Of a stretch of DNA of 20,655 nucleotides, positions 1-17,327 are shown one piece after another. Positions within the stretch are counted from its first letter, which is position 1. Each line of letters begins with the position of its first letter. Position numbers and translations under genes: made by a program. The stretch is from a virus. Under the pieces are notes generated by a model that saw nothing but the letters and a program-made list of their open reading frames with translations, had not been told where the DNA came from and made no database searches. The stretch covers positions 1 through 20,655 of IMG/VR virus record IMGVR_UViG_3300042731_000190; one strand, 5' to 3'.

Positions 1-752
1 AACTATTGGATGACCAAGCGGGAGACCCTGACTTCCCTTTTGAGTTCGGCCTCATCAGGGACGAGGTAGAGGGTCTTGATAGGGGCAACTTGGGTATCAT
101 CTTTGCCAGACCAGAGGTAGGTAAGACCACCTTCTGCTGTTTCCTAGCTGCAAGTTATGTACGTGCAAAGCAAAACGTAGTATATTTTTCTAACGAAGAG
201 CCAGCAAAGAAAATAAAGTTGCGTCTCATCCAATCGTTTTTCGAAGTTACAAAGGAAGAACTTGACAAGAATCGTGCGAAGTACGTACCATTGTGGGATG
301 AGCATATTGCACCGTACTTCAAAATCATGGCCTCTGTGGGTACGAGTGTTGAAGAGGTAGACGAGTACGCCAAGCTGAACAAGCCTGACATAATCTTCTG
401 TGACCAGCTTGATAAGTTTCGTATCGCTGGTGAGTACAACCGTGGTGATGAGCGGTTGAAAGAGATATATGTCAACGGACGCGAGATTGCCAAGCGCAAT
501 AACTTACTGTTCTGGGCTGTGTCGCAGGCAAGTAATGATGCCCATGACCGACAGTTCATCGACTACTCCATGATGGATAACTCGAAGACAGGTAAGGCTG
601 GTGAGGCAGACATTATCATTGGTATTGGTAAGACAGGTTCGAGTGAGGTGGAGAACACCGTACGACACATTTGTATATCAAAGAACAAAATTAACGGATA
701 TCACGGCATGATAAATGCACAGATAGACATAGCAACGGGAGTGTATTACTGA
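1..752 (+). CDS. Replicative DNA helicase, DnaB/T7 gp4-type RecA-fold domain (5' partial)
   Basis: The frame is open from the window edge, so the N-terminus (a primase or DnaB N-domain, if present) is missing. The visible ~249 residues form a RecA-like ATPase core. A Walker A loop ARPEVGKTT (nt ~105-131) has Glu where helicases of this family usually have Gly. It is followed by a conserved strand ending FSNEEP, a Walker B strand DIIFCDQLDKF (nt ~384-416) and a sensor-like FWAVSQAS with the conserved Gln. Late in the protein, ADIIIGIGKT and SKNKING fit the C-terminal DnaB motifs. By family knowledge it unwinds DNA at the fork as a hexameric ring. It is directly followed (TGATG overlap) by the polymerase exonuclease gene, which supports a fork role. 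The family call is confident; whether a primase is fused upstream cannot be seen. Confidence 0.88.
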   Translation, partial: LLDDQAGDPDFPFEFGLIRDEVEGLDRGNLGIIFARPEVGKTTFCCFLAASYVRAKQNVVYFSNEEPAKKIKLRLIQSFFEVTKEELDKNRAKYVPLWDEHIAPYFKIMASVGTSVEEVDEYAKLNKPDIIFCDQLDKFRIAGEYNRGDERLKEIYVNGREIAKRNNLLFWAVSQASNDAHDRQFIDYSMMDNSKTGKAGEADIIIGIGKTGSSEVENTVRHICISKNKINGYHGMINAQIDIATGVYY

Positions 753-1330
753 TGCGTGTTCTTACCTTTGATGTAGAAACCACACATAAAGACAAGCCTA
801 GTGGTGGTACAACTGCGTTGCCACATTTTGGCAATCGTCTTGTATCTGTAGGTTTCAAGTGGCTGGGTAATGATGTACAATATCTATGCTTTCATCATGC
901 AGACCGTGAGCCTAGCCGTGATGCGTTCAACATCTTTCAAGATGCTTTGCGTCTTGCAGATGTGGTAGTTGGACAAAACATTAAGTTTGATTTACAATGG
1001 GTACGCTCATGTAATTTTACCTACGAGGGGCATGTATATGACACGATGGTTGCGGAATACCTGCTGGCGAAGGCGAGGCGTTGGCCTCTTGGCCTTGCTG
1101 CTCTTGCCCAAAAGTATGGTGGCATACAGAAGGAGAAAGACCTCGTTCAGCCATATCTCAAGAATGGGAAGACATTCTACGAGATACCGTGGGAGATAGT
1201 AGAAGAGTACGGCATAGCTGACGTAGCCGCTACAGAACACGTTGCACTCAAGCAATTAGAAGCCTTTGGCACAACCTTTGAGGAACTTTATGGAAAACGA
1301 ACTGATACCGACACTGAAGCTGTCGCTTGA
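752..1330 (+). CDS. DNA polymerase 3'-5' exonuclease subunit (DnaQ-like, family A exo domain)
   Basis: This 192-residue protein is a stand-alone version of the proofreading domain of a family A DNA polymerase. Exo I is FDVETT near residue 6 (the DxE metal ligands). Exo II is NIKFDLQW (NxxxFD) near residue 76. Exo III is YGIADVAAT (YxxxD) near residue 153. It should remove misincorporated 3' nucleotides. The ATG at 752 overlaps the helicase stop (TGATG), with GGGAG about ten bases upstream. The end runs 41 bases into the polymerase gene in a different frame. The two proteins sum to about 705 residues, matching T7 gp5 (704), so the pair is a split version of one polymerase. Confidence 0.9.
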   Translation: MRVLTFDVETTHKDKPSGGTTALPHFGNRLVSVGFKWLGNDVQYLCFHHADREPSRDAFNIFQDALRLADVVVGQNIKFDLQWVRSCNFTYEGHVYDTMVAEYLLAKARRWPLGLAALAQKYGGIQKEKDLVQPYLKNGKTFYEIPWEIVEEYGIADVAATEHVALKQLEAFGTTFEELYGKRTDTDTEAVA

Positions 1331-2831
1331 GATGACAGACGTACTCGCCAAGATAGAGTACAACGGTCTGAAGATAAACCTCAACACACTTGAGCAGATA
1401 CGAGAAGAATACGAAACTGAGATGCACGAATTGGAGATGCGTCTGGACAGCTTGGCACGTGATGCTATGGGGGATACACCCATCAATCTTGCCAGCCCGG
1501 ACGACAGGTCGATGCTCCTATACTCACGCAAAGTTGCAGACAAAACCCTCTGGTCACAAGTGTTCAATCTGGGGCATGAGGTGCGTGGCTCTACTCGCAA
1601 ACCAAAAATGCGTACTCGCATGAGAGCCAAAGACTTTAAAGAAAACGTACGTGGTTTGACACGTGTAGTGTACAAGACAGAAGGGCAACGTTGTCCAGAC
1701 TGTGATGGTGAGGGACGCTTTCATCCACTGCGTAAGGATGGTACACCCAGCAAAGCAGTGCGAGTTTGTAAGACATGTAAAGGTACGGGTGTCCTGTACC
1801 GTAGTACCGGTGAGGTAGCTGGCTTCAAGCTTGTGCCTCGTAATCCTTTGGACGTTGCGTCTGCTGGTTTTAAAACAGACAAAGTTACACTTGAGGAACG
1901 TGCGCCAGAACTTAGCGGTGAGGCTCGTGACTTTGCAGAATCGTACGTAAGGTACAATGCCTTGCGTACCTATTTAAGTACTTTTGTTGAAGGGATGCAA
2001 AACAATGTTGATGAGAATGGTTTCATACACCCAGAATTTATGCAGTGTGTTACGGCGACGGGTCGCCTTTCGAGCCGCAATCCTAACTTTCAAAATATGC
2101 CACGTGGAAATACCTTCGCTATACGCAAGGTTGTTGAGAGCAGGTTCGAAGGCGGTCAGATACTTGAGGGGGATTACTCTCAGCTAGAGTTTCGTGTTGC
2201 TGGCTTCTTGGCTAATGATGAGGGTATCATGTCAGACGTACGGGCTGGCACGGATGTACATAGCTACACAGCCAGTGTGATAGGTTGTAGTCGGCAAGAA
2301 GCCAAAGCACATACTTTTAAGCCGCTGTACGGTGGTGTGAGTGGCACTGAAGACCAGCAAAGATACTACCGTGCGTTCAAGGAAAAATATGCAGGTGTCA
2401 AGGAGTGGCACGAGAGGTTACAGAGAGAAGCTGTAAAGCATAAGCAAATTAAACTACCATCAGGCAGACAATATGCTTTTCCAGATGCAAAGTGGACAGA
2501 GTGGGGTACAGCTACAAATCGCACCGCTATCTGTAACTATCCGGTGCAGGGATTTGCAACCGCAGACCTGTTGCCTGTGTGTCTTATACGTCTTAGCCAC
2601 CTAGTGGAACAAAATAATCTACAGTCTGTAATTTGTAATACCGTGCATGACTCTATTGTAATGGACGTACATCCAGATGAAAAAGACATTTGTATCAAGC
2701 TGATGACTGAGGCTATGTTAGCGATACCTGAAGAGGTACAAAAGAGGTATAATGTACAGTATACTATGCCTGTTGACATAGAATTAAAAATAGGATACAA
2801 CTGGCTTGACTTACATGAAGTCAATGTGTAG
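1290..2831 (+). CDS. Family A DNA polymerase, polymerase domain, with internal zinc-knuckle pair
   Basis: This 513-residue protein carries the thumb, fingers and palm of a PolA/T7-type polymerase but no exonuclease domain. ATGRLSSRNPNFQNMP precedes motif A, DYSQLEFR (D295). Motif B is RQEAKAHTFKPLYGG (R335, K339, F343, Y347). Motif C reads HDS (residues 453-455) where most relatives have HDE. At residues 135-167, in the thumb region, there are two DnaJ-like CxxCxGxG knuckles (C135, C138, C160, C163). The ATG at 1290 is chosen because GAGGAA precedes it by four bases; an in-frame TTG at 1266 is possible but lacks such a site. The start lies inside the upstream exonuclease gene, which suggests coupled translation. 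The protein should be the replicative polymerase, working with the adjacent exonuclease. Confidence 0.93.
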   Translation: MENELIPTLKLSLEMTDVLAKIEYNGLKINLNTLEQIREEYETEMHELEMRLDSLARDAMGDTPINLASPDDRSMLLYSRKVADKTLWSQVFNLGHEVRGSTRKPKMRTRMRAKDFKENVRGLTRVVYKTEGQRCPDCDGEGRFHPLRKDGTPSKAVRVCKTCKGTGVLYRSTGEVAGFKLVPRNPLDVASAGFKTDKVTLEERAPELSGEARDFAESYVRYNALRTYLSTFVEGMQNNVDENGFIHPEFMQCVTATGRLSSRNPNFQNMPRGNTFAIRKVVESRFEGGQILEGDYSQLEFRVAGFLANDEGIMSDVRAGTDVHSYTASVIGCSRQEAKAHTFKPLYGGVSGTEDQQRYYRAFKEKYAGVKEWHERLQREAVKHKQIKLPSGRQYAFPDAKWTEWGTATNRTAICNYPVQGFATADLLPVCLIRLSHLVEQNNLQSVICNTVHDSIVMDVHPDEKDICIKLMTEAMLAIPEEVQKRYNVQYTMPVDIELKIGYNWLDLHEVNV

Positions 2832-2870: not shown

Positions 2871-3707
2871 ATGGGAAATATTGTAAATAATGAACTGGAC
2901 TCTTTGGTAGCTGCGTTTAATTCTAATGATGAAACTGCTTTGATGGCGGCTTCTGGTCAACAGACCCAACAGAAACAAACTGGTTTACCGCGATTAAATA
3001 TTAACTATGATATGGAAACTGAAGATGGCATTGCTCTAACGCGAGGTGATTGGAAAGTGTACGTTGATGGTAGGTTCTTGTATGCGCCTACTGTGCAATT
3101 ACGTCCTATTCTGCGTACTTTTGAGTATAGCTTGTGGGATGCAGATGAAGGGGGCTTTAAATGTAAGTCTGTGCAGAAACCAACTATATCGGGTGACTTT
3201 CCTGATTCGGATGGCACGAATAAATGTGGTCGTCTTCGTCGTGATGAAGAAGAAACTGCATCAGAGGAAGTGCAAATGCGGTCTCGTGCCGTTGTTTGCA
3301 ATCAGGTAATCTACGGTCAACTGTCAGGTAATTTTAAAGCTGCAGATGGCACGGAAGTTACTTTGGATGCCCAGCCTATCGTAGCGTATTTCAAACGTTC
3401 TGGGTATAAGCCGATTGGAGATTTCATTGATGGGCTTTCTCGTCAAAAGAAATTGATGCAACGTCAGGTTATGAATCTGGCAACGTCTAAGGCCAAGAAG
3501 GGCAGTGTCACTTACTGGATTCCTGTTCCTACTTTGCATGGTGAAGTTCCTATTACAGAGGCTGATAAGCAACTGATGGGTATGTTTGCTGAGACTGTAT
3601 CTGCACATAATAATTATGTGATGGAGCAGAACCGCGAAGCCACTAAGTTTGCAAGTGGTGGAGACTTTGACTTAGCAGACGACTTTACTGATGTTGACGC
3701 TGCTTAG
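2871..3707 (+). CDS. Probable single-stranded DNA-binding protein
   Basis: This 278-residue protein has no family that I recognise with certainty. It is beta-rich in the middle (for example GDWKVYVDGRFLYAP and VVCNQVIYGQLSGNF). It then has a basic helical stretch (LSRQKKLMQRQVMN, with TSKAKKG soon after) and ends in a strongly acidic tail, DFDLADDFTDVDAA. Phage ssDNA-binding proteins such as T7 gp2.5 use an acidic C-terminal tail to contact the polymerase and helicase. Position between polymerase and nuclease genes fits that job. The call is therefore inference from tail and context. The ATG at 2871 has GGAG six bases upstream; an ATG at 2859 is in frame but has a poorer site. The last 17 bases overlap the next gene. 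Confidence 0.5.
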   Translation: MGNIVNNELDSLVAAFNSNDETALMAASGQQTQQKQTGLPRLNINYDMETEDGIALTRGDWKVYVDGRFLYAPTVQLRPILRTFEYSLWDADEGGFKCKSVQKPTISGDFPDSDGTNKCGRLRRDEEETASEEVQMRSRAVVCNQVIYGQLSGNFKAADGTEVTLDAQPIVAYFKRSGYKPIGDFIDGLSRQKKLMQRQVMNLATSKAKKGSVTYWIPVPTLHGEVPITEADKQLMGMFAETVSAHNNYVMEQNREATKFASGGDFDLADDFTDVDAA

Positions 3708-4575
3708 TATTCAAGACTTTTTGGACAAAGCAAGCAGGGGGGAACTTGATGTCTCCCCTGCATCACTTAATAAATTTAAAATTGAATGTCGTGAAGCTGC
3801 TGCAAAACAGCTAAAGCGTGAGAAACGCGAATGGTACGTTCGCATGTCCGGTCTTGGTCGTCCCATGTGTCAGCAGATGCTAGACAGAGATGGTGTCGAA
3901 GAGGAGATGGAATACAATGCTGTGTTCCGCTTTCTGTTTGGTGACCTGACTGAAGCGGCAATGATGCTTGTACTGCGAGAGGCCGGTGCGGACATTAGAG
4001 GCGCACAGGAGAAGTGTTCTTTACATCTTGATGGGTACATAGTCAGAGGTACGCTTGACCTCATCCTGCGCGATTCTATGGGCATTGACAGGGTGTGGGA
4101 TATTAAGTCTGCCAGTGATTGGGCGTTCAAGAACAAATGGATTGGCGGGTACGAGAAGTTGCTCGATGAAGACCCGTTTGGGTATATCATGCAGGGCTTT
4201 TTATACGCTGAAGCAATGGGTATGCCGTTTGGCGGTTGGCTCGTTGTAAACAAATCATCCGGTGAGATACTTGAAGTGCCTGTTCCTGAGTGGCACGACA
4301 CAGATAAGCATAAGTATCTGGAAGAAGCAAAGCGTCGTGTAAAGGTACTGAATGACCCTGATGCACCGTTCGTAAAGTTTGAACCAGAAGATGAGACCTA
4401 TCGTAGACAAGGACAGATTATCAAAACGGGTAACAAGATACTACCTCGCGTATGTGGATTCTGTGGTTACCGCGCACATTGTTGGCCTGATGCAATCTTA
4501 CGAGAAAAAGTAACCTCACAGGCTAAGAACCCTCCTAAAACATGGTATACTAGATTAAAAAAGAAAGAAATCTAA
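3691..4575 (+). CDS. RecB/Cas4-like PD-(D/E)XK nuclease with probable Fe-S cluster
   Basis: This 294-residue protein shows the RecB nuclease signature: FGDLTEAA with E88, GTLDLI with D123, the strand VWDIKSAS with D137 and K139, and a QxxxY motif (QGFLYA, Q168-Y172). One cysteine before the nuclease core (C60) and three after it (C255, C258, C264, in CGFCGYRAHC) match the four-cysteine arrangement that holds a 4Fe-4S cluster in Cas4 and AddB. By family knowledge it would be an exonuclease or flap-type nuclease used in recombination or in degrading host DNA. The ATG at 3691 lies inside the previous gene and has no good Shine-Dalgarno, so translation is probably coupled. A strong RNA stem-loop (3734-3761) occupies its first codons. 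Confidence 0.82.
   Translation: MLTLLSIQDFLDKASRGELDVSPASLNKFKIECREAAAKQLKREKREWYVRMSGLGRPMCQQMLDRDGVEEEMEYNAVFRFLFGDLTEAAMMLVLREAGADIRGAQEKCSLHLDGYIVRGTLDLILRDSMGIDRVWDIKSASDWAFKNKWIGGYEKLLDEDPFGYIMQGFLYAEAMGMPFGGWLVVNKSSGEILEVPVPEWHDTDKHKYLEEAKRRVKVLNDPDAPFVKFEPEDETYRRQGQIIKTGNKILPRVCGFCGYRAHCWPDAILREKVTSQAKNPPKTWYTRLKKKEI
3734..3761 (+). promoter_or_regulatory. Strong stem-loop at the ssDNA-binding/nuclease junction
   Basis: A ten-pair stem (3734-3743 with 3752-3761, one G-U pair, seven continuous pairs in the GC-rich base) closes an eight-base loop. It begins 27 bases after the stop codon of the ssDNA-binding gene and lies in codons 15-24 of the nuclease gene. No T-tract follows, so it is not a standard intrinsic terminator. 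It could protect the 3' end of the upstream mRNA, slow polymerase, or reduce translation of the nuclease. Confidence 0.5.
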
Positions 4576-4955
4576 TGCCGTACATCTTGATGAGAGAATA
4601 CGATATAGACTTAATGGCTTTGAACGATGACTTGCACCATGCGTATGTTGAATCACATACAGGTACAGGGGGAGAAAGACGTGTCGTGTATCTTCGTCAA
4701 CATGAAAAGGGGATGCCTATCACACTTAGAGAGAATTACTCTGATGATGGGTTTCTACGTGCAGAAACGTACGAACGAGATGCACGTACTGTCGAGAATG
4801 AATTGTTAAAAATAAGACAACTATCTAATCAAGGGGCAAACATTTGCGTACCACTAGCACCGCTCACAAAAGAACTAGATGCTATTCAAAGACTATCCCC
4901 AAAACTCGCAGGATATCTAAAACAAAGACTAAATTCGATAAACTTAATAGTATGA
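4575..4955 (+). CDS. Hypothetical protein, 126 aa
   Basis: I do not recognise this protein. It is soluble and charged, with no membrane segment, cysteine pair or evident catalytic motif. The N-terminal half looks mixed alpha/beta (VVYLRQHEKGMPITLREN) and the C-terminal half looks helical (RTVENELLKIRQLS, then LTKELDAIQRLSPKLAGYL). The ATG at 4575 overlaps the nuclease stop (TAATG). The stop overlaps the endonuclease I start (ATGA at 4952), so it is translated as part of the same operon. A role in replication or recombination is suggested only by position. Confidence 0.8.
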   Translation: MPYILMREYDIDLMALNDDLHHAYVESHTGTGGERRVVYLRQHEKGMPITLRENYSDDGFLRAETYERDARTVENELLKIRQLSNQGANICVPLAPLTKELDAIQRLSPKLAGYLKQRLNSINLIV

Positions 4956-5353
4956 AACGTAAATTTGCAAATAGAAAATCAGGGTATCGGTCACAGTTTG
5001 AACTCAGTTTGGCACGTAGTTTGAAAGAAAAGAACATACCGTTCGAGTATGAAACAAAGCGACTGACATACATACCTGACCCTAAGACATACACCCCAGA
5101 CTTTTACCTACCAGATACAGACATTTACATTGAGGCAAAAGGCGAGTTGTCTAAGCCAGACAGAGTGAAGATGATTCTGATAAAGAAACAGCATCCTGAA
5201 CTTGACATACGGTTTGTTTTCATGAATTGTCGTAATAAGATATACAGGGGAAGCAAGACAACGTACGCTGATTGGTGCATCCGACATGGGTTTGATTGGT
5301 CAGAGAAACACATACCAGCCGAATGGTTAAGAAAGGCAGACAACGATGAGTGA
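4952..5353 (+). CDS. T7-type endonuclease I (Holliday-junction resolvase)
   Basis: This 133-residue protein matches the T7 gp3 endonuclease I pattern. An early Glu (SQFE, E17) is followed by TPDFYLPDTDIYIEAKG, giving D50, E61 and K63. These correspond in order and spacing to T7 E20, D55, E65 and K67. The family cuts branched DNA such as four-way junctions, which debranches replicating DNA before packaging and helps degrade host DNA. T7 endonuclease I is 149 residues, so length is normal. The ATG at 4952 forms an ATGA overlap with the upstream stop. An earlier in-frame start near 4844 would add a lysine-rich, poorly structured leader overlapping the previous gene and is unlikely. Confidence 0.88.
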   Translation: MKRKFANRKSGYRSQFELSLARSLKEKNIPFEYETKRLTYIPDPKTYTPDFYLPDTDIYIEAKGELSKPDRVKMILIKKQHPELDIRFVFMNCRNKIYRGSKTTYADWCIRHGFDWSEKHIPAEWLRKADNDE

Positions 5354-5696
5354 TGACATAAAGAAGAAAGTAGAAGCAGCAAGTCTGTTACCTGACAGGT
5401 ATTACCTAATCATGAACTATGAAGACGAAGACTCGTTTTCTATGACAGCGTACGACACAACAAAAGGTGAAGTGAATATGGAAAACGTACCCGCTGGCAT
5501 GGTTATGTTGTCTGGTATGATTGAGTTAATGGAAAATGACTTTGACCGTGTGTGGGATGCAGGTGTTGCTCGTCTTAGCTTTATTGCAATGGCGGAATCT
5601 TTTAAACCAGAAAGTAAAGACGGAGAAGATGCTATTGATAAGATTGTTGCGCGAGAAGATAATATTGTGAAAGTAAATTTCGGAGAAACGCAGTGA
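5346..5696 (+). CDS. Hypothetical acidic protein, 116 aa
   Basis: No family is recognised. The protein is acidic (NYEDEDS, ESKDGEDAIDK) with no cysteine and no membrane segment. A short hydrophobic stretch, GMVMLSGMIELM, is more likely a buried helix. The ATG at 5346 overlaps the endonuclease I gene by eight bases, and the stop overlaps the next start (GTGA). An acidic small protein in this position could be a partner or DNA mimic for neighbouring nucleases, but nothing in the sequence shows this. Confidence 0.78.
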   Translation: MSDDIKKKVEAASLLPDRYYLIMNYEDEDSFSMTAYDTTKGEVNMENVPAGMVMLSGMIELMENDFDRVWDAGVARLSFIAMAESFKPESKDGEDAIDKIVAREDNIVKVNFGETQ

Positions 5697-5974
5697 CAAG
5701 CTACATGAACATTATGAAAGAGATAGAAGAAAACGAACAAGCAGGTAAAGAGGCATATAGCGGCTATGATATGGTTGACAAACCCTTCCACTACAATCAG
5801 GCAGGTATCGAGTGCATTGATGCAATCAAAGCGGCGACGGGTACAGGCTTTGAACAATACCTACAAGGGAACATCATCAAGTACGTCTGGCGATACAGAT
5901 ACAAAGGCAAACTACAAGACCTCAAAAAAGCCCAGTGGTATCTCGAAAAGTTAATTGAAGAGAAGACAGAATGA
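5693..5974 (+). CDS. DUF3310 family protein
   Basis: This 93-residue protein carries the DUF3310 signature: DKPFHYNQAGIECIDAI, then GNIIKYVWRYRYKGK, then LKKAQWYLEKLI. The family is common in phages next to nucleotide-metabolism and replication genes. It is often annotated as a nucleotide kinase-like protein, but its activity is not established. The GTG at 5693 is supported by CGGAGAA seven bases upstream and by the GTGA overlap with the previous stop. The stop overlaps the following ATG (ATGA at 5971). A position just before ribonucleotide reductase fits a nucleotide-related role. Confidence 0.88.
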   Translation: MTSYMNIMKEIEENEQAGKEAYSGYDMVDKPFHYNQAGIECIDAIKAATGTGFEQYLQGNIIKYVWRYRYKGKLQDLKKAQWYLEKLIEEKTE

Positions 5975-6129
5975 ACTGTTGGCATTGCAAAACAGAATTA
6001 ATCTGGGGATGTGACCACGACATGGAAGAAGAGAGTAGTTACTTCTCTATGGTCACAGACCTACACTGCCCAAATTGTGGCAGTGAAGTTTCAGTATACT
6101 TACCAAAAGAAAGAAAAACCGATGAATAA
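5971..6129 (+). CDS. Small zinc-ribbon protein, 52 aa
   Basis: This small gene encodes MNCWHCKTEL at its start and LHCPNCGSEV near residue 31. The two CxxC knuckles are separated by about 27 residues, with an extra Cys and His (WGCDHD) between them. That is a typical zinc ribbon. The ATG overlaps the DUF3310 stop (ATGA) and the stop lies eight bases past the next ATG (6122), so it fits the coupled operon exactly. Similar tiny zinc-binding proteins often follow DUF3310 genes in phages. It may bind nucleic acid or a protein partner; its target is unknown. Confidence 0.8.
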   Translation: MNCWHCKTELIWGCDHDMEEESSYFSMVTDLHCPNCGSEVSVYLPKERKTDE

Positions 6130-8050
6130 TATGTTACCTACCCCTTATCAGCAGTTCATTCACAAGTCACGATATGCTCGTTGGATTGAAGATGAAGGAC
6201 GCAGAGAAGATTGGCATGAGACTGTGTATCGTTACACAAACTTCATGGCAAATCATCTTAAAGATAAACATGATTTTGATATACCAGAGCAAGACCTTTC
6301 TGATATACACGATGCTATTTTGGATTTGCAAGTCATGCCAAGCATGAGAGCCATGATGACATCTGGTGCTGCGTTGGAACGAGATAATGTATGTGGGTAC
6401 AACTGTTCATACATTCCTGTGGATAGCCCCCGCTCATTTGATGAATGTATGTACATTCTTATGTGTGGCACTGGTGTAGGGTTTTCTGTTGAGCGTAGTA
6501 ACGTGGATAAGATGCCTGTGATTAGTGATGCAATGAATGACTCTGAGACCGTTATCAAAGTTGCAGATAGCAAACCGGGATGGGCAAAGGCATACAGGGA
6601 GTTGATTGCCCTGTTGTACGCAGGACAGATTCCTACATGGGATGTATCAGAAGTTCGTGCGTCTGGAGAACGTTTGAAGGTCATGGGGGGAAGAGCCTCT
6701 GGCCCACAACCTCTCGTGGACTTGTTCACGTTTACTGTAGAGGTATTTAAAAAAGCGTCAGGACGTAGACTATTTCCGATTGAGTGTCATGATTTGATGT
6801 GTAAGATTGGGGAGATTGTTGTCGTAGGTGGGGTAAGACGCTCTGCTCTCATCAGTCTTAGTAACCTAAACGATGACCAGATGCGTCATGCCAAGGCAGG
6901 ACAGTGGTGGGAGAATGAAGGACAGAGAGCCTTGGCTAACAACTCTGTCGCATACAAAGGTAAGCCTGAGATGGGTACGTTTATGCGTGAGTGGCTTGCG
7001 TTGTACGATAGTAAATCTGGTGAACGTGGTATCTTTAATCGTGAAGCTGCAGACAAACAAGTTGCACGTAACGGCAGACGAGAGACAGGACACCAGTGGG
7101 GTACAAACCCCTGTAGTGAGATTATTTTGCGTCCATACCAGTTTTGTAACCTCTCTGAGGTCGTCGTGAGGGCTAGTGATACCCTTGATGACTTACTGAG
7201 GAAGACGAGAATTGCCACTATTGTAGGTACAATACAGTCTACGCTCACTGATTTCAAATATTTGAGGAATGTATGGAAGAAGAACACAGAGGAAGAAAGA
7301 TTGCTAGGCGTGTCCTTAACTGGTATTATGGACCACTCCGTTCTATCCAAAAATGTAGACAGCAAACGTTGGCTAGAGAAGATGCGAAAAGAAGCCGTCA
7401 AAACGAACGAGAAGTATGCAAAGATGCTTGGAATCCCTCAGTCCGCTGCAATCACTTGTGTAAAGCCGTCGGGTACTGTGTCACAACTCGTGGACGCAGC
7501 TAGTGGCATACATGCTCGTCACAATGATTACTACATTCGAACTGTTCGTGGTGGTAATTCTGACCCTCTTACTCAATTTATGAAGGAGTCAGGAGTATAC
7601 AATGAACCTGATGTTATGAAGCCTGACACGACCACGGTGTTTAGTTTTGCTATGCAGTCACCTTTGGGTGCAGTGCTGCGTACAGATATGTCTGCTATCG
7701 AACAGCTAGAGTTGTGGAAAACGTACGCTCTGCATTGGTGTGAACACAAGCCATCTGTAACTATCTCTGTTAAGGAAGAAGAGTGGATGGATGTAGGTGC
7801 TTGGGTGTATCAAAACTTTGATGTTGCATCCGGTGTTTCGTTCTTGCCTCACAGTGAGCATACTTATCAGCAGGCTCCGTATCAAGACATCGAACGTGAA
7901 GATTATTTAGAGTGGCAACAAGCGTATGATTATGTTACTCTTGATTGGAATAAGTTGACTGAGTTTGAAAAGGAAGATACGACTACAGGTTCGCGTGAGT
8001 TAGCTTGCACAGCAGACACCTGTGAAGTTGTAGACTTGAGTGCGGCATGA
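6122..8050 (+). CDS. nrdJ: Class II (adenosylcobalamin-dependent) ribonucleotide reductase
   Basis: This 642-residue protein reduces ribonucleotides to deoxyribonucleotides. By comparison with Lactobacillus leichmannii RTPR, the key residues line up. NCSYIPV (C95) and FCNLSE (C342) are the redox pair, and NPCSE (residues 329-333) holds the radical Cys C331 and E333. The C331-C342 spacing of eleven equals C408-C419 in RTPR. CVKPSGTVSQLVDAASGIHARH is another strong match, given here only as its start CVKPSGTVSQ and end SGIHARH. The tail CTADTC (C629, C634) keeps the swinging-arm pair. No small subunit or activase gene is beside it, consistent with a cobalamin enzyme. The ATG at 6122 overlaps the zinc-ribbon gene by eight bases; an ATG at 6131 is an alternative. 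Confidence 0.92.
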   Translation: MNNMLPTPYQQFIHKSRYARWIEDEGRREDWHETVYRYTNFMANHLKDKHDFDIPEQDLSDIHDAILDLQVMPSMRAMMTSGAALERDNVCGYNCSYIPVDSPRSFDECMYILMCGTGVGFSVERSNVDKMPVISDAMNDSETVIKVADSKPGWAKAYRELIALLYAGQIPTWDVSEVRASGERLKVMGGRASGPQPLVDLFTFTVEVFKKASGRRLFPIECHDLMCKIGEIVVVGGVRRSALISLSNLNDDQMRHAKAGQWWENEGQRALANNSVAYKGKPEMGTFMREWLALYDSKSGERGIFNREAADKQVARNGRRETGHQWGTNPCSEIILRPYQFCNLSEVVVRASDTLDDLLRKTRIATIVGTIQSTLTDFKYLRNVWKKNTEEERLLGVSLTGIMDHSVLSKNVDSKRWLEKMRKEAVKTNEKYAKMLGIPQSAAITCVKPSGTVSQLVDAASGIHARHNDYYIRTVRGGNSDPLTQFMKESGVYNEPDVMKPDTTTVFSFAMQSPLGAVLRTDMSAIEQLELWKTYALHWCEHKPSVTISVKEEEWMDVGAWVYQNFDVASGVSFLPHSEHTYQQAPYQDIEREDYLEWQQAYDYVTLDWNKLTEFEKEDTTTGSRELACTADTCEVVDLSAA

Positions 8051-8538
8051 TTGAAATTCAAATATCAGATGAAATGCTCTTGGCTGCTCGTTCTAAAACT
8101 CGTCAGATGGGGTTGTTAAACAATTCCATACTTAGAGGGGGCGGTAGTATAGCAGGATTTATAGGAGAACAAATCGTACTCTCTGTGTTAGGTGGCGTGT
8201 GGAAAAATTCGTACGACTACGATATCATTCTGGATGACGGTAAGAAAATAGAAGTAAAAACTAAACAAACTTCTGCTGTTCCTAAGTTACACTATGATTG
8301 CAGCATCAGTAACTTTAATACAAAACAAAAATGTGACATGTACGCTTTTACTCGTGTACACAAGGATTACTCTACAGGTTGGTTCTTGGGTATGCTAGAT
8401 AAAAAAGAGTACTTTGATAAAGCTGTGTTTATGAAGAAAGGTTCACTTGACCCTGCGAATGGTTATACAGTTCGTGCGGATTGTTATAACGTACCTATAT
8501 CTGAATTGAGACAAGCAAATGGCGCAAAAGAAGGTTAA
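8047..8538 (+). CDS. Putative PD-(D/E)XK endonuclease-like protein
   Basis: The 163-residue protein has the core of a restriction-endonuclease-like fold. FIGEQIVLSVLGG (E41) is a helix with a conserved acidic residue. It is followed by DYDIILDDGKKIEVKTKQ, where D59, E69 and K71 give a D-x9-ExK active site. The rest (YDCSISNFN, DMYAFTRVH) alternates strands and helices as in this fold. The substrate is unknown. It may cut host DNA, act in recombination, or be a relic of a selfish nuclease. The ATG overlaps the reductase stop (ATGA). It is unrelated in detail to the RecB-like and endonuclease I genes upstream. Confidence 0.6.
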   Translation: MIEIQISDEMLLAARSKTRQMGLLNNSILRGGGSIAGFIGEQIVLSVLGGVWKNSYDYDIILDDGKKIEVKTKQTSAVPKLHYDCSISNFNTKQKCDMYAFTRVHKDYSTGWFLGMLDKKEYFDKAVFMKKGSLDPANGYTVRADCYNVPISELRQANGAKEG

Positions 8539-9018: not shown

Positions 9019-12000
9019 TTAAGGGGCTGTTATATCAAGGCTTGGTAGTATAAGGTCACCTGCGCCACCACCCAAGCCGATTTGACGCATTTCATTTGGA
9101 TTTAATCCTGTGAACTCTCTTCCTGTTCTTTGTATATCTGCAGGCGTTGCATTTACAGTGTAACGTCTGTTTTCTGTATCTACAATCTCTTTTGTTTCAG
9201 TGCCTTGCGTGTGATACAACCTTGCTGCAGCATTGATAAGCGCACGTCTGAATGCAGCATCACGTTTAGGGTCGAGAGGACGACCGGTTCGAACCATCTC
9301 TGCAAAGGCTCTGCCGACTTCTACGTCTTCAAGAGCAAGCATAAAGAACTCGAAATCTTTTTTTCGTATACCCTGTAATGCAGCTTCCGTACCTAAGTAA
9401 GGTGCGCCAACAATGCCACGATTAAAAGCGTACATACGGCTAACGAAACTCTCCGGTGAAAGGCCACGAGGTATGCCCCTTATGGATATGTTCTGCCCAC
9501 TGAACACTGAGTTTTCTGTTTCAGATAAGAAACCTGACATAGCTTCTAAAATCTCGTAGCTGTCATCTCCCAGTATTTCTTTCATAAGTTTGCGCTGTTC
9601 GTCAGTTTCTCCTAACAAACGCACGATTTCAGGCCGTGATTCGGCAACTATATCTGTCTCAACTATACGCACATTTTCGTCTGGTGATACAACACTTTCT
9701 GCACGTTTTCTACCTGTGGGTTTAAATACTCTTTTGCGAATGTGACGTACAACAGCATCTCTAATCACTTGTTTTACTGCAGCCTCATCCATTGTATCTA
9801 AAGAAGTAAGTGTTGATGTGATTTGCCTATACCGGCTAGTACCCCCATCTAAAATAATACTTCCAATGTCATCCGCACTATTTACGTCGGGCAACATACC
9901 TCTTAAAAACGATACCGCCTCATCTAAATTTTCTTTTCTTTTCTTTGCAGGAGCGGCAAACTTATCGATTGCAATGTTGATTTCTGCATTTACTTCGTTT
10001 TCTATTTTTCTAGCTGCCTCTTCTGATACAGAGCTTTTCCAAGGACCGTACGTATCATCCATGTGTTTAGTCGGATTTATTAAAGAAATTTCCCTACCGT
10101 TAGCGTCTAACATCTTAAAGTTATTTTCAATTTTTCTGGCTGCTGCCATCATGTCCTGCATAGTTGCGCCGTTTTCCATCATCTCTTTTAACTTTTCACC
10201 TACAAAAGCTGAAAAGTAAGAGCGGAATGTTTCTGTGTCAATGTCGCCTTGTACAAGTCTGTAGCCTATGGCCCTACCAGCCCCCTGACCTCTAACATTG
10301 CCCTTAGTAACTTGAAAGCTACCCAACGTTCTATTTATAGACAGCATTATATTTTCTGCAGACTGTGGGTTTGTCAGCATGTCTAATGTCATCCAGTTGT
10401 TGATTGCTTTATCGTACGCCTTACCTGATGGGTTATCGTTGGTAACCCCCTTCTCATTTGTACGCTGCTTTCCCCACGACATCAAACGTGGAACAAAGGC
10501 TCCTTCCTGTAAATCGTACCAGTTTTCTTTGTACTCACGCCACGCTCTTCTGCCACGTTCCATAATCTCAGGTAGTGTACCTTCAATTTCTCCCGTTTGT
10601 TGATTCAATACACGAAGGTTGCCTAACGGACGAGCGTTCCCATCTGCATCTATGACTTCAAAGTCACCGTACTTGCTCTCTACTAATTCAGAAGTAGCAG
10701 TCAACTTACGTGATACTGTGCCGTCATCCCTGTATTTAAAACCAAGTGCGCGTACAAAACGGTCTAATTCTGCATACTGCATGGGGTCCATATCAAAGAA
10801 GGGTAGATGTTGGTCATTTTCTGCAGCTTCTATAATTAACTTTTGTGCAAGCATCGCTTGTTTGTTTCTGCCTTTAGGAAAAGCTGCTGGGTCTTTTTTC
10901 TTTTCTTGCTTTACCATTTTAGCAACATATTCATCTACATCCATTCCAGCGTCCATAGCAGCGTTCATAAAAAATGGAGATGTTAATTCAACTAAAGTGT
11001 CGTCTATAGCCTTGATATCTCCCGGACGCATCCCTTTTCCTTGAACATTTAACAAACGCCCAGTTCCGGGATAGTCTAGCTCTGTCAAATCTAGTATAAC
11101 ATCTAAAACAGGAACAGTTGGGGGTGTTGTGATGCGCTGATTAGTACTATCTAAAAATACAGAGTTATCACTTTTTAAAAATACAAAATCTTTTGATGCA
11201 ACTTCTTTTGCTCTACCGTGACGAGAAACAAGGTGCATTTCAAACAACCCCAACGGACCAACGCTCATTGCTACATCTGGATTGTCTTTTGTTTGTAAGA
11301 ACGCACGTGCTTCCTCCCCTGCTCCAAATTGTAACTTCAGTTCGTCCGCTTTGTTTTTTATAAGTTGAGTGATTGGTCCGTACGTGTTGATTAGATGTTG
11401 TTGAAATTCAGGTGCGGGAACTGCGTTCATGTCGATTAAATTCTTATCACGAAGAACTGTCATAGCCTCATCAAACGTCATGTGGTCACTGATATCAGGA
11501 CGACCCCCCGGAGAAGCTGGGTCAAGCACACCTGAGTTACCATGTAAAACATTTAAGTATCCACCTACACCTTTTTTGGATACTACATCAAGAAGTGTTT
11601 TTAAGTTTTGTTGTTCAACTTTAGCATCCTCGTGATACCGCTTAACTGTTTCAAAAAATACTTCGTCCACGTTTCCGGTGGACTCCATTTGCTTTAGAAT
11701 CCTATCCAACTCACTGTTTAACTGTTCACCTAACACACGTATCTGTTGAAGATGTTTAACTTGTTCGCCTCCAATTGCATCTTTTACAGCTACAGTTTTA
11801 GATACTGCATCTTGAAGATGTCGTAACGTAACGATATCAGTCAAAACCGGCAACGTTACATCAAGAACAGCCTCATCTACACCTGCATTTGCAAGTTTTG
11901 TCCTGTATGCGTCAATACGACGAGCATGTTCCATAGCCATGTCGCGTATTTCTGGTGCGGCTCTTTGAAAGTGTCGTATTAATAATTCTGTTCGTTTTCG

Positions 12001-13755
12001 TACATCTTTAGTAGTGTGGCTTTTTATGTAATCTATACCGGCAGGAACCTTTCCTTTGGCGACACTTGTCAAAAATCCTACACCTACACCAATTAAAGAC
12101 CCTAAATCTCTGTCCATCATAGATGCCTCTTCAAAGAAGAATCCTACAGATGCAGCACCTGCTAAAACGTACCTGTCTTGTACGTTGTAGTCTCTGATAA
12201 ATTTAGGAACTGCGCTTCTGCGTTGTATTCCAGTTAGGGAAATGCTAATTTCATCTATTTGAGAATCGATGTTTCTAATCTTCTCGTCTAAATTAGGGCG
12301 GTACGTTTCAGGGTTGTCTCTTTGTTTTATTAAACGAGTGCGTTGGTCAGTCAAAGCAGACAAACGGTCTGTTTGTTGCACAACTTCTACACGCATGTCT
12401 ACTGGAAGAGACGCATCACTTACCTGAAAGGCTCTAGCTAAACGTTCATTTGTAATTTCATCTAGCTTATCATTCCCTTGACGAAGCACAAATTTGCGTA
12501 TGCCAAAATTGCCTTTTCTGTATTCATCAAAAAATCCTTGAATAAGTTCCTGTTCAGGTATTTCTTTTCCACCAGTCAATTCAAACCGTTTTTTTACGTA
12601 CGCACGATACTGGGAGTGCATGTACTTTGCGTTTGCTGTGGTAAAGAAATTAGATACCTTGTTGGGTGCGTTCATTTCAAGAAACAGACGTGCCGTAAAA
12701 GCAGGCAAGCCCGTTTGCTCACGAGCCAAATCTTCTGCTGTAGAAAGGTCCATGTCAATCCCACGTGATGCCCATTCATCTTGAAGCTCTTGAGAGGCGG
12801 GTTTCCACCACATGTCTAGCAAAGCTTGTCGACCTGTGTAAGAAGAGATGTCTTCGTTGTACCATGTATTTATGCCGTCACCAAACCAACCTGCAATTTC
12901 TCCGACCATGTACAGACCAATTTCTGCTGAACCTCTACCTAATGTTTCAGTTGCAAGCGTACCTATTCTTTTTGCTTCTTTAATTGCAATATTTTCAAGA
13001 GCGTCATTAATTATAAAGTATCTGGCACGGGCAGGCACGTTTTGCCGTAATAACTTTTCATTCAAGTGTTGTGCGTGCATAGCCCGAATAACTTCCGCTC
13101 CCGGTTCGTCTTGATTCGCACCTAATGCTGCACCAAAAATTCTGTTAGTGTATGCTAAACGGTTGTACGCAGATGCAGACATGTCCTTGTAATTTATTTC
13201 CATCTCACCTACACCGAATGGACCGGGTACGGTTATTGAATCAGGAACTCTTGTTAGTTTGGCAACCGCTTCTTCAAACGGAAAATCTACGTATTGAGCA
13301 TCTTGTGTAATGGCGCGAACTGCACCAAACTGATTCATCATCTCTACACGTTCTTCAAAAGTATCAGGCAGTATTTCTATTTCGCCGTCTTGATTTTCTA
13401 CAGCATCCCAAGTCATAAATTGATTGGTTACGTAATCTTCGTCATCCAAGTTAAGTACGTTTGAAATACCTACTTTTTCCCTAAATTTTACCTTTGTCCA
13501 ATCTACAGGCACTTTTCTTTTGGTTACCATTCCCATGCCCGGTATCTTTATGTCTGTACCCGGTATCGGGGTGGGGGCCATTTCTGTTTCAATCTGGTCA
13601 GTGAGTACGCCAGACGCTTCTACCGCTTCCTGTTTTTTCTTCTGTTCTTCTCGACGCAAAGAATCTGCCTGCAAAAATGCACCTATGGGAGACGCTGACG
13701 GCATCAACGTGGACATCTGCAAGCCTATGTTAGATTGTTTAGTATCTTCTGCCAT
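9019..13755 (-). CDS. Giant internal virion protein (probable ejectosome component), 1578 aa
   Basis: This is the largest protein in the window and has no enzyme motif that I recognise. Its size and place after the tail-region genes, next to another giant protein, match internal virion or DNA-ejection proteins of podoviruses (T7 gp15/gp16 in role, not in visible sequence). It is mostly helical and charged. A coiled-coil-like stretch with SALTDQRTRLIKQRD lies near residues 455-515. Residues ~525-565 contain two glycine-rich hydrophobic segments (YVLAGAASVGFFFEE and LGSLIGVGVGFLTSVAKG) that could insert in the host envelope. I see no lytic transglycosylase motif. The ATG overlaps the upstream stop (TAATG). 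The functional call is inference. Confidence 0.6.
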   Translation of the reverse strand: MAEDTKQSNIGLQMSTLMPSASPIGAFLQADSLRREEQKKKQEAVEASGVLTDQIETEMAPTPIPGTDIKIPGMGMVTKRKVPVDWTKVKFREKVGISNVLNLDDEDYVTNQFMTWDAVENQDGEIEILPDTFEERVEMMNQFGAVRAITQDAQYVDFPFEEAVAKLTRVPDSITVPGPFGVGEMEINYKDMSASAYNRLAYTNRIFGAALGANQDEPGAEVIRAMHAQHLNEKLLRQNVPARARYFIINDALENIAIKEAKRIGTLATETLGRGSAEIGLYMVGEIAGWFGDGINTWYNEDISSYTGRQALLDMWWKPASQELQDEWASRGIDMDLSTAEDLAREQTGLPAFTARLFLEMNAPNKVSNFFTTANAKYMHSQYRAYVKKRFELTGGKEIPEQELIQGFFDEYRKGNFGIRKFVLRQGNDKLDEITNERLARAFQVSDASLPVDMRVEVVQQTDRLSALTDQRTRLIKQRDNPETYRPNLDEKIRNIDSQIDEISISLTGIQRRSAVPKFIRDYNVQDRYVLAGAASVGFFFEEASMMDRDLGSLIGVGVGFLTSVAKGKVPAGIDYIKSHTTKDVRKRTELLIRHFQRAAPEIRDMAMEHARRIDAYRTKLANAGVDEAVLDVTLPVLTDIVTLRHLQDAVSKTVAVKDAIGGEQVKHLQQIRVLGEQLNSELDRILKQMESTGNVDEVFFETVKRYHEDAKVEQQNLKTLLDVVSKKGVGGYLNVLHGNSGVLDPASPGGRPDISDHMTFDEAMTVLRDKNLIDMNAVPAPEFQQHLINTYGPITQLIKNKADELKLQFGAGEEARAFLQTKDNPDVAMSVGPLGLFEMHLVSRHGRAKEVASKDFVFLKSDNSVFLDSTNQRITTPPTVPVLDVILDLTELDYPGTGRLLNVQGKGMRPGDIKAIDDTLVELTSPFFMNAAMDAGMDVDEYVAKMVKQEKKKDPAAFPKGRNKQAMLAQKLIIEAAENDQHLPFFDMDPMQYAELDRFVRALGFKYRDDGTVSRKLTATSELVESKYGDFEVIDADGNARPLGNLRVLNQQTGEIEGTLPEIMERGRRAWREYKENWYDLQEGAFVPRLMSWGKQRTNEKGVTNDNPSGKAYDKAINNWMTLDMLTNPQSAENIMLSINRTLGSFQVTKGNVRGQGAGRAIGYRLVQGDIDTETFRSYFSAFVGEKLKEMMENGATMQDMMAAARKIENNFKMLDANGREISLINPTKHMDDTYGPWKSSVSEEAARKIENEVNAEINIAIDKFAAPAKKRKENLDEAVSFLRGMLPDVNSADDIGSIILDGGTSRYRQITSTLTSLDTMDEAAVKQVIRDAVVRHIRKRVFKPTGRKRAESVVSPDENVRIVETDIVAESRPEIVRLLGETDEQRKLMKEILGDDSYEILEAMSGFLSETENSVFSGQNISIRGIPRGLSPESFVSRMYAFNRGIVGAPYLGTEAALQGIRKKDFEFFMLALEDVEVGRAFAEMVRTGRPLDPKRDAAFRRALINAAARLYHTQGTETKEIVDTENRRYTVNATPADIQRTGREFTGLNPNEMRQIGLGGGAGDLILPSLDITAP

Positions 13756-16700
13756 TAGGTAGAGCCGCCTTCTTCGTTACTTTTCATTATTTTAAATTTA
13801 AAAGTTCGTTCTGCTCTTTGACGTTGTGAATCAGTAAGGTCGTCAACAGTCACGCCTAGTCTCGTTGCTGCTTTTTGCAATTCTTCGTTCAATCGTTTAT
13901 TGAACACATCTTCAGTTAAACCTAAATACTGGTCATCTGGGTCAAGTTTTGGAGAACGAGGATTTTGTCCCTTTGTATTAATGTAATTAACTGCATAGTT
14001 TATTCCCATATCGATATGGTACACGCTGTCTGCAGCCATGCTAAGTGCAACAGCCGTGTTGTAAGCAGCCCTTTCTCTACCGTCAGTAGATGTTTGATAC
14101 TTTGCACGTGTGTACATATCTTTAATTAAGTCTCGTGCTGCTTCAATCGTGTCAACCTGTGTCTCTGCACTTGTTATAAATCCTTGACGTAATGCGTTAA
14201 GAATTAAAGCAACGTCTTGGTCAGAAATCGTACGACCCCCTGTGCCACCCTGCACGGCTGCAGATATCTGATAAGCTAAAGTAACAAGATAAAATTGACG
14301 AGCAGCTAAATTCCGTCTTACTTCAGGGTCCATACCACGAGAGGCTGCATCCACTTCTGCAGCCATTTCAGATACAATTTTTTCAATTTGGTCTCTGCCT
14401 GTGTTCCCTGTATTTCCCGTTGTTAAATTTTGATGTCTTCCAGTGGTAGCTAGACCAATAGACTGTTTAAAGGAATCTAATCCAGATAGTAGCTGTGTAG
14501 CGTTAGCTGTACCAGACCCACCCAAGAAATCTAAAACTACTCCCTTTAATCCACTTACAACGTAAGGTAGGTCAGCCGCCTGTAATCTAAAATTAGCAAT
14601 ACTTGAAGGGTCAAGTAATGTAGCGCGGCCTGTGTTTCTGTCTATGTTATAGTAAGTACTTAAAAAAGAATTAGCAGTACTCAAAGCAGCAAACGCACTA
14701 TCTCTCATTTCTATACCTGCAAAGAAACGTTTTTCACCGGGGCCACCCATGCCGGGTTGAAATTCTAGTAGTGCGTCTTGAAATTCTGGGGACAAATATG
14801 CGCCGGGTCCACCCTTTGCCTTTGATTTGCGGGAGGTAATCCAGAGTTGTTGAGTTTCTACAAGGTCTTCAAAAGAATCTGCTGCACCTACAATTTTATT
14901 TGCAAAGAATTTTACATCATCAGGTTGAACACCTAAATTAACTCCATTCGACCACGCGACGAAAAGGTCCATGTATGTACTATTACCATCAGGAGTTTTT
15001 AAGTTTCTTAGACTTCTGTACGCTTCAGGTATGGCTTGAATGTCACTGTACCTAATTATACCGTTAGGGTCGGCTACAGGGGTTACTCCGTCAACAGGAC
15101 TTCTTTCTACATCAAACATAAGCATCATAGCTGGACCTGCGTGTCGTATGTCATTTAAGCCTTGTACTTGCATGTAATGAGATTGCAAATAGCTATAATT
15201 ATCTCTTTGTGCTGCTGGAACAGAAGTAGGAATCAAACGTACTTTTTGATTATGCACAGGTTGAATGTGCGTTTGATTTGGACTCAGTGCGTAATCTTCA
15301 GGCAGAACAACTACTTCGGCTGTTTCACCTAAAGCAGGGTCAGTGTTGCTAAAAATAAACTGTTCCATATTTGTAAACGCATCGTCAAAGCTAACTTTAT
15401 CGTACTGTTCAAGAGCCTCCCGCATACCTTTAATTTCAAGCATCGGTCTTGTAGTATCAAACACTTTCTCTACCAGAGGTTTAAATTCTTGAGGGGGAAT
15501 TGCAGCATCTCTATTCAAGGCATTGTTTCTACGACGCTCATCTTCTGACTTGGCTTTTTCCTGTTCGTACAAAGAGTATAGCACAGGTGCAAAAGTTCGA
15601 ACGTATTCTTCTGCATGTCCTTCACGATTGTTTATCTTTTCGATACGAGACGGAGTAAGTTTTTGTACCATCGTAGCACGTTGTTGTGGAATACTGTCCT
15701 GTTTCATACCCCCAAAGAAAACAACTTTACCGTTTTCTATAAACGGCATTTGTTCCATATGTCCGTTTACTTTACTAGCCATAGTGCTGTAATTTGATGC
15801 GTTTGGTCGGCTGCTTTTTAATATCCTACCTGTGCCTTGTTCGACAGTTACATCTATAAGTTCTGTTGCTGTTGCTTTATCCTCTGATGTAAGAGAAGGG
15901 TCATCAACAAGTTTTAATTCACCGTTAACACGAATTGCTGTAGTTTCAATCGTATCCCGGTCAATAGGACTAACAATAGAGGGAGTGCCGTTTACTACGC
16001 CAACTTTTCCCTTGCCAATGACAGTGATGTTATCAAAAACGCTTGTAAATACTGGTGTGTTAAAATCAGACTCATCATCTGCATAGACTTGAACTGTCGC
16101 TCCTGTTGCCTTGTTAACAGCGGTAGCAATCGCCCTCTCTTGTTCCTTACCGTCTATAAATTCAGATTCAGGGTCGCCTACCTTTTGAGAGCCTTTGTAC
16201 TTTTGTTTAATTTTAGTATAGTCGTGTGTGGCAACATCCAATCCATTTTGTGCTAACATATCTTCCATATCTTTAAAGCTTGAAGCACTGTACCTTTGTA
16301 CCTTACCTTCGGGATTTGTCATCAGCCATTCGTACGTAATGTCTTCATATTCCAATGCCTCTGGAATTATTCTTTCTGCTAACACTGTACGTTCTGAAAT
16401 AGTTTTACCTTTTGAATCTAGGTACGTGTTGTACCTTAATTTAACTATGCTTTGTGCGCCATGTTGTGCTTCTAGTTCAGTTAAACGGTCAGAATCAACT
16501 CTTGAATATTTTATACTATCTGATACCTTTTTGCCATTTTTAAATACCGCAGGAACAATAACGTCGTACAGAGGGTCTCCCTTACGAGCATCCTTGTCAA
16601 ACTCTTCTTGTGTAAATTTTGGCTGACCAATAATACGCATATTAGCATCTATGTTAGCTATGTAGGATTGAAGAATACCTCCTGTGCGTATGGCTTCTGT

Positions 16701-17327
16701 TACAGCTTGTGGTCGTTGGTCAATAGTAAACATTTTGTCACCTACTCTGTAACCTCTATCAACAGCCATTCCAAACGCGGCTACTTGGTCATCTACGCTA
16801 TATCTTTGCCTTGTACCGTCAGCTTTAATATGCCCTATCTGACGAGCAAAACCACCTTTGTTCCAATCAGGATTTAATTTATCTAACTCTTTTCTAGTTC
16901 CAATAATTTGATTATTATTCAGGTCAAGGCCAGAAAAAAGTTGTGTTCCCGCAGGTTCCTGATTTAGTTTGGCTTTAACTTCATGAGCAAAAATATAACT
17001 ATTTCCGTCAGCGGAAAGCCCTGCAACTTTTTCATAATTCTGAGGTGGCATGGCTCCCGGAAGAACTGTTAGTTCTTGCGTATCACCTGTTTCTGTATTT
17101 ATGTACAGACCCCTGCTTTGTTGAAGTCTTACATCTCGTACCTTAGAAAGGTCTTCAGCTTCTTGCTCTGCCTTTTTCTTTTTAATATCTGCTTGAAGTT
17201 CATAATCAATTATTTCTTTTTCTTGTGTCATCTCTGCTTTAGCAGCAGCAGCGGCAGCTTTGGCTCTGCGTTTTTTACCGTAGTTTGCAGTGAGAGCGTA
17301 CAACCCAAGTGAAAACAAATCAGCCAT
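13755..17327 (-). CDS. Large internal virion protein, 1190 aa
   Basis: This is a second giant protein with no recognised domain. It starts with a short hydrophobic segment (LFSLGLYALTANYG), then an Ala/Lys-rich, coiled-coil-like helix (KKRRAKAAAAAAKAEMTQEK onward, to about residue 65). The long middle is beta-rich and the C-terminal third helical (for example AAYNTAVALSMAADSVYH). Size and pairing with the 1578-residue neighbour suggest a podovirus internal or ejection protein. The start is well supported: AGGAGCAGGA precedes the ATG at 17327, which forms a TAATG overlap with the upstream gene. The role is inferred from context only. Confidence 0.6.
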   Translation of the reverse strand: MADLFSLGLYALTANYGKKRRAKAAAAAAKAEMTQEKEIIDYELQADIKKKKAEQEAEDLSKVRDVRLQQSRGLYINTETGDTQELTVLPGAMPPQNYEKVAGLSADGNSYIFAHEVKAKLNQEPAGTQLFSGLDLNNNQIIGTRKELDKLNPDWNKGGFARQIGHIKADGTRQRYSVDDQVAAFGMAVDRGYRVGDKMFTIDQRPQAVTEAIRTGGILQSYIANIDANMRIIGQPKFTQEEFDKDARKGDPLYDVIVPAVFKNGKKVSDSIKYSRVDSDRLTELEAQHGAQSIVKLRYNTYLDSKGKTISERTVLAERIIPEALEYEDITYEWLMTNPEGKVQRYSASSFKDMEDMLAQNGLDVATHDYTKIKQKYKGSQKVGDPESEFIDGKEQERAIATAVNKATGATVQVYADDESDFNTPVFTSVFDNITVIGKGKVGVVNGTPSIVSPIDRDTIETTAIRVNGELKLVDDPSLTSEDKATATELIDVTVEQGTGRILKSSRPNASNYSTMASKVNGHMEQMPFIENGKVVFFGGMKQDSIPQQRATMVQKLTPSRIEKINNREGHAEEYVRTFAPVLYSLYEQEKAKSEDERRRNNALNRDAAIPPQEFKPLVEKVFDTTRPMLEIKGMREALEQYDKVSFDDAFTNMEQFIFSNTDPALGETAEVVVLPEDYALSPNQTHIQPVHNQKVRLIPTSVPAAQRDNYSYLQSHYMQVQGLNDIRHAGPAMMLMFDVERSPVDGVTPVADPNGIIRYSDIQAIPEAYRSLRNLKTPDGNSTYMDLFVAWSNGVNLGVQPDDVKFFANKIVGAADSFEDLVETQQLWITSRKSKAKGGPGAYLSPEFQDALLEFQPGMGGPGEKRFFAGIEMRDSAFAALSTANSFLSTYYNIDRNTGRATLLDPSSIANFRLQAADLPYVVSGLKGVVLDFLGGSGTANATQLLSGLDSFKQSIGLATTGRHQNLTTGNTGNTGRDQIEKIVSEMAAEVDAASRGMDPEVRRNLAARQFYLVTLAYQISAAVQGGTGGRTISDQDVALILNALRQGFITSAETQVDTIEAARDLIKDMYTRAKYQTSTDGRERAAYNTAVALSMAADSVYHIDMGINYAVNYINTKGQNPRSPKLDPDDQYLGLTEDVFNKRLNEELQKAATRLGVTVDDLTDSQRQRAERTFKFKIMKSNEEGGST

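Follow-up and report, generated by a model that had tools for sequence, protein, structure and literature searches.

A conserved CxxCxGxG cysteine knuckle in a thumb insertion of HMO-2011-type phage DNA polymerases

Family A DNA polymerases of the HMO-2011 type, such as gp12 of Puniceispirillum phage HMO-2011 and the enzymes of Pelagibacter phage HTVC033P and Roseobacter phages CRP-1/2/3, represent up to 19.7% of their family in ocean viromes (PMC9038755), and how they stay on DNA therefore bears on marine virus replication broadly. Their hallmark, according to two surveys published in 2019 (PMC6918029) and 2022 (PMC9038755), is a 'partial DnaJ domain' containing two CxxCxGxG motifs and located between the exonuclease and the polymerase, which was found in all isolates and in 207 metagenomic genomes. 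In the GenBank record of HMO-2011 (NC_021864), the same segment is annotated DnaJ_CXXCXGXG. Since the motif appears in this record and in both surveys, it is an already known feature; the refined placement in the polymerase thumb that is presented here is new relative to the literature covered. Neither a function nor a thumb placement is given for the partial DnaJ domain in the two surveys, and no biochemistry on the putative zinc insertion of HMO-2011-type enzymes was found in the literature covered.

Insertions in the thumb of family A polymerases have a described function in other systems. In the T7 and human mitochondrial polymerases, processivity factors bind thumb insertions (PMC7699545). 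Escherichia coli Pol I, moreover, becomes less processive and less accurate when its thumb is truncated (Minnick 1996, cited in PMC10061031). The locus analysed here is the full 20,655-base IMG/VR record IMGVR_UViG_3300042731_000190, of viral origin, called 'the window' below.

A polymerase gene separate from its exonuclease gene

The window opens with the gene of a DnaB-type helicase (3-752), followed on the plus strand by a separate gene for a 3'-5' exonuclease of 192 aa (752..1330; motifs DxE, NxxFD and YxxxD; Pfam DNA_pol_A_exo1, E 1.3e-10) and by the gene of a family A DNA polymerase of 513 aa devoid of an exonuclease domain (1290..2831, ATG start; Pfam DNA_pol_A, E 9.9e-53). Further along, the neighbouring replication genes (within 3691-8538) comprise those of a Cas4-type exonuclease (3691-4575) and phage endonuclease I (4844-5353), a DUF3310 gene (5693-5974) and a class II-type ribonucleotide reductase with a GTG start (6011-8050). 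The minus strand carries two very long ORFs of 1578 and 1190 aa (9019-17327), the 1578-aa one having no Pfam match.

The closest named phages are HTVC033P (48.5% identity of the polymerase), HMO-2011 (41%), and Roseobacter phages CRP-1/2/3 and others (38-42%). The resemblance to the HMO-2011-type enzymes extends over nearly the whole protein (38-49% identity) and includes the family A domain, the motifs and the insertion, the segment with the two CxxCxGxG motifs preceding the catalytic domain. However, the enzymes of HMO-2011, HTVC033P and CRP-1/2/3 are fused exonuclease-polymerases of ~680-705 aa, whereas in the window the exonuclease is encoded by a separate, overlapping gene and is not part of the same polypeptide.

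Relatives of the polymerase were collected from viral contigs with four queries. In the clade of the window, exonuclease and polymerase are separate ORFs in 71 of the 71 loci in which both ends are visible, in every case with a +1 shift and an overlap, while 188 other loci, outside this clade, encode a fused protein. The split clade has a single origin in the tree (support 99/99). In the window, a Shine-Dalgarno-like GAGGA (1280..1284, plus strand) lies within the exonuclease gene and the polymerase ATG stands 5 nt further on. The same arrangement, GAGGA then a start codon at 5 or 8 nt (65 ATG, 3 GTG and 3 TTG), is kept in all 71 loci, which fits translational restart. This was preferred, as the simpler explanation given such conservation, over a programmed +1 frameshift yielding a fused enzyme. 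The split arrangement is new, the HMO-2011-type enzymes described so far being fused. The 2022 survey retained solely polymerases >540 aa, a size above that of the window polymerase and of the split clade (~508-513 aa), which would therefore be missing from its polymerase tree (PMC9038755).

Four invariant cysteines and the kind of knuckle they form

The first CxxCxGxG motif in the polymerase translation is CPDCDGEG (residues 135-142, with C135 and C138; 1692..1715, plus strand) and the second is CKTCKGTG (residues 160-167, with C160 and C163; 1767..1790, plus strand), exactly where a preliminary sequence-only reading of the window had located them. Among 300,000 composition-preserving shuffles of the window polymerase, 208 contained one such motif and 0 contained two. 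That reading was made dependent on conservation of the cysteines among close relatives, and they are indeed conserved: both CxxC pairs are kept in 266 of 266 full-length polymerase relatives. Both complete motifs occur in 217 of these, the rest differing mainly at a glycine, mostly that of the second motif. In 35 representatives (<80% identical), conservation of the four cysteines is 100% and the adjacent residues vary freely. Likewise, C135, C138, C160, C163, G140, G142, G151 and G167 are invariant in an alignment of 71 sequences (called A1), and the sequence between the cysteines is variable except for a turn with K149 and G151. The window polymerase thus has the four invariant Cys ligands in two CxxC pairs that characterize a tetracysteine knuckle. 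With four ligands in all, the two CxxC pairs would make up one zinc site and not two, so that the name 'double' zinc knuckle, proposed initially, is misleading.

The knuckle had also been called DnaJ-like, a description that holds for half a domain. CxxCxGxG motifs are common to the window polymerase and the central (CR) domain of DnaJ, and the Pfam profile DnaJ_CXXCXGXG (PF00684) matches the polymerase at profile positions 14-55 of 65, which correspond to the inner pair of motifs. Beyond this, the likeness fails: the score of 21.1 bits is under the gathering cut-off of 32.7, and DnaJ has four motifs, two zinc sites and a J-domain, whereas the window polymerase has two motifs, one predicted zinc site and no J-domain (HPD) among its Pfam matches up to E 1. 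Membership of the DnaJ family was rejected on these grounds. A chaperone-like role, in which the knuckle would recruit host DnaK or stand in for DnaJ in replication, could be read into the published label 'partial DnaJ domain' and into the match of 67 of the 71 members with the Pfam profile at E <= 0.01, and attention has been drawn to the role of DnaJ in lambda replication (PMC9038755). Such a role nevertheless appears highly improbable in view of the missing J-domain, the two motifs out of four and the sub-threshold match of the window polymerase, and because the zinc domain of lambda Q displays the same knuckle pattern.

The lambda Q antitermination proteins (PDB 4mo1 and 7ubj) are in fact the best match by sequence among solved structures, albeit a weak one (E 0.024); with PHROG 6060, a Q-like family, the match spans residues 125-168 (E 4.3e-7). 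As in the window polymerase, the zinc domain of lambda Q has two CxxCxGxG-type motifs with similar spacing; lambda Q is, however, a transcription factor, and its observed likeness to the polymerase concerns the knuckle. Given this shared pattern and the lack of a J-domain, the knuckle is, judging from its sequence, of a CxxCxGxG type that occurs in several protein families, rather than part of a chaperone. Matches to Pfam Zn_Ribbon_Prim (E 0.13) and Anti-TRAP (E 0.25) were taken as generic CxxC cross-matches and discarded. When the zinc segment alone was searched by tblastn, HMO-2011-type enzymes were the only polymerases among the best 50 matches, the remainder being mostly enterobacterial phage primases or primase/helicases (E 0.009-0.5), with one phage dnaJ. 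In the primase/helicase genes (Drexlerviridae-type phages, matches H73-H110), the segment finds a weak match (~34% identity over 58 aa), which may mean that the knuckle is used there as well.

An insertion between helices H1 and H2 of the thumb

The AlphaFold2 model of the window polymerase, built from the protein chain alone, has a mean pLDDT of 88 (~86-95 over the knuckle region) and a pTM of 0.77. Together with an alignment to the Klenow fragment, it delineates the thumb on the plus strand as the long helix H (residues 31-60, 1380..1469), helix H1 (residues 70-78, 1497..1523), which follows the INLxS motif (FNLSS in Klenow), helix H2 (residues 198-207, 1881..1910), which follows a GFKT motif in the model, and helix I (residues 210-239, 1917..2006), seen likewise in the model. 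Between H1 and H2, and flanked by H and I, is an insertion of ~110 residues (approximately 83-192; 1536..1865, plus strand), with a net charge of +13, that replaces ~10 Klenow residues (595-605). Within it, strands 128-134 and 168-176 beside the knuckle would most simply form a two-stranded beta-ribbon (1671..1817, plus strand) that ends in the putative zinc knuckle. The model of a fused relative is alike, with a ribbon (294-300/334-342) between helices 238-246 and 364-373.

Profile alignments agree with this view. The A1 profile aligns with Klenow over residues 13-81 and stops at construct position 271, which is E. coli residue 594 after adding the construct offset of 323. Once residues 83-190 are removed from the profile, the alignment is continuous through Klenow, with INLxS over FNLSS, and runs on into the next loop. 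Furthermore, polymerase models match the Taq/Bst structures with Z scores of ~28 (385 of 513 residues) and ~32 (531 of 678 residues), the unmatched remainder being about the size of the insertion. From the Klenow profile, the models and the Taq/Bst matches taken together, it follows that the insertion lies in the H1-H2 loop of the thumb and that the knuckle is at the thumb tip. The initial proposal that the thumb of the polymerase houses a zinc-type insertion, its motifs lying between the N-terminal helices and the ATGRLSS block, is therefore supported, and the alternative that the knuckles lie far from the thumb is contradicted by both AlphaFold2 and Klenow comparisons.

The further suggestion that this is the general place of the T7 insertion is correct as to the neighbourhood in the thumb but not as to the loop. 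In T7 gp5, the FNPSS motif comes after the thioredoxin-binding domain (residues 258-334; the helix names H and H1 are those of the T7 structure), whereas FNLSS/INLxS in Klenow and in HMO-2011-type polymerases precedes the loop carrying the insertion. A T7-type domain would stand between H and H1, before FN(L/P)SS, and the window insertion follows H1. This order of motifs places the T7 domain in the H-H1 loop and the zinc insertion in the H1-H2 loop, that is, in neighbouring rather than equivalent loops; the argument, which relies on motif order and not on superposition, is strong but short of a formal proof. The A1 profile aligned with T7 gp5 solely from residue 224 onwards, over the catalytic part, the insertion-deleted profile left the thumb loops of T7 uncovered, and MAFFT misaligned the two insertions. 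The T7 polymerase is absent among the structure matches listed for the models, and this absence is no evidence.

The H1-H2 loop, judged by eye as the segment that separates the F-x-W/F-x-S and (V/I)Y(S/K)T helices, is also long in PolAs of Autographiviridae (L299, L300, L301, L302 and L305). The PolAs of Stenotrophomonas phage StenM_174, Pseudomonas phage PollyC, an Acinetobacter Friunavirus and Rhizobium phage RHEph02 thus have a long insertion in the same loop but, in contrast to the window polymerase, no CxxC anywhere. Zinc is therefore not required for the insertion in these phages; the H1-H2 loop appears as a repeated site of enlargement, and zinc as peculiar to the HMO-2011-type family. 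The closest relative found without the zinc motif, encoded on a MAG contig of Myxococcota (L291:3071-5062), is a fused exonuclease-polymerase, ~35% identical in its catalytic part and with a short thumb loop by eye; because its branch in the tree is very long, it cannot date the insertion.

These zinc-free insertions, together with the variability of the residues between the cysteines (the K149/G151 turn aside), are what would be expected if the knuckle were a mere stabiliser of a long loop, binding neither DNA nor a partner. Two features argue against so passive a part, namely the retention of the cysteines without exception, even in relatives of 41-50% identity, and the uniformly basic character of the insertion (mean net charge +10, range +4 to +19 among the relatives, for a mean of -5 in the rest of the polymerase). 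Both suggest a working surface, and the stabiliser explanation is accordingly considered rather improbable.

A putative zinc-stiffened arm and its comparison with known systems

The best reading of the locus starts from the observed motif, its conservation, its position in a thumb loop and the charge of the insertion. In this scheme, which we hold to be somewhat better than an even bet, a structural zinc knuckle would stiffen a basic arm at the thumb tip that grips the duplex and/or docks a replisome partner. The four cysteines would bind a single metal in one Zn(Cys)4 knuckle capping the two-stranded beta-ribbon of the ~110-residue H1-H2 insertion, zinc having the structural role of keeping the arm rigid. 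Most likely, the arm would extend the grip of the thumb on the new duplex, so that DNA affinity and processivity would rise with no need of thioredoxin, and it may also dock a replisome partner, for example the protein with an acidic tail that is encoded next door. By analogy with the E. coli, T7 and mitochondrial enzymes, it would be expected to embrace the duplex upstream of the catalytic centre, to bind a partner protein, or to do both. A role in processivity or docking is plausible in that it fits the basic charge and the thumb-tip position; the positive charge of the insertion could also reflect merely protein–protein contacts.

This last point leads to the gene that comes immediately after that of the polymerase (2871..3707, plus strand), whose product of 278 aa has an acidic C-terminal tail (DFDLADDFTDVDAA in the window protein, DVDIDGIVDVEVEEEVA in that of HMO-2011) and is a candidate ssDNA-binding protein or docking partner. 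If the arm were mainly a docking device, it would bind the acidic tail of this would-be phage SSB in the manner of the basic patches of the T7 domain, and DNA grip would be secondary. The tail is acidic in most of the 45 listed and the insertion is basic, the tail of the T7 SSB binds the thioredoxin-binding domain, i.e. the thumb insertion (PMC7699545), and in a mobile element the PolA thumb tip is predicted to bind SSB (PMC10061031). However, the neighbour is without a family match and, in PHROG, Pfam and PDB, matched no SSB family, so that it could not be assigned to one, and its tail is nearly neutral in a few relatives (L060, L061 and L073). Docking as the main function is viewed as unlikely, though less so than the other alternatives to an arm that grips DNA.

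Placement at the thumb tip gives the odd annotation 'partial DnaJ domain' a testable mechanism, DNA grip or partner docking. In a broader and more tentative proposal, to which we give somewhat less than an even chance, the zinc-stiffened H1-H2 arm would be a thioredoxin-independent device for processivity or docking, a further solution in addition to that of T7, in one of the most abundant groups of marine phages, the enzyme in the clade of the window being composed of two subunits with a separate exonuclease. T7 gp5, like the window polymerase, is a family A replicative polymerase whose thumb tip bears a large insertion; the T7 domain stands before H1 and has another sequence, whereas the window insertion stands after H1 and carries the cysteine knuckle. 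If the proposal is true, a zinc-based element would join the known thumb add-ons, which comprise the thioredoxin-binding domain of T7 and the mitochondrial and plant inserts.
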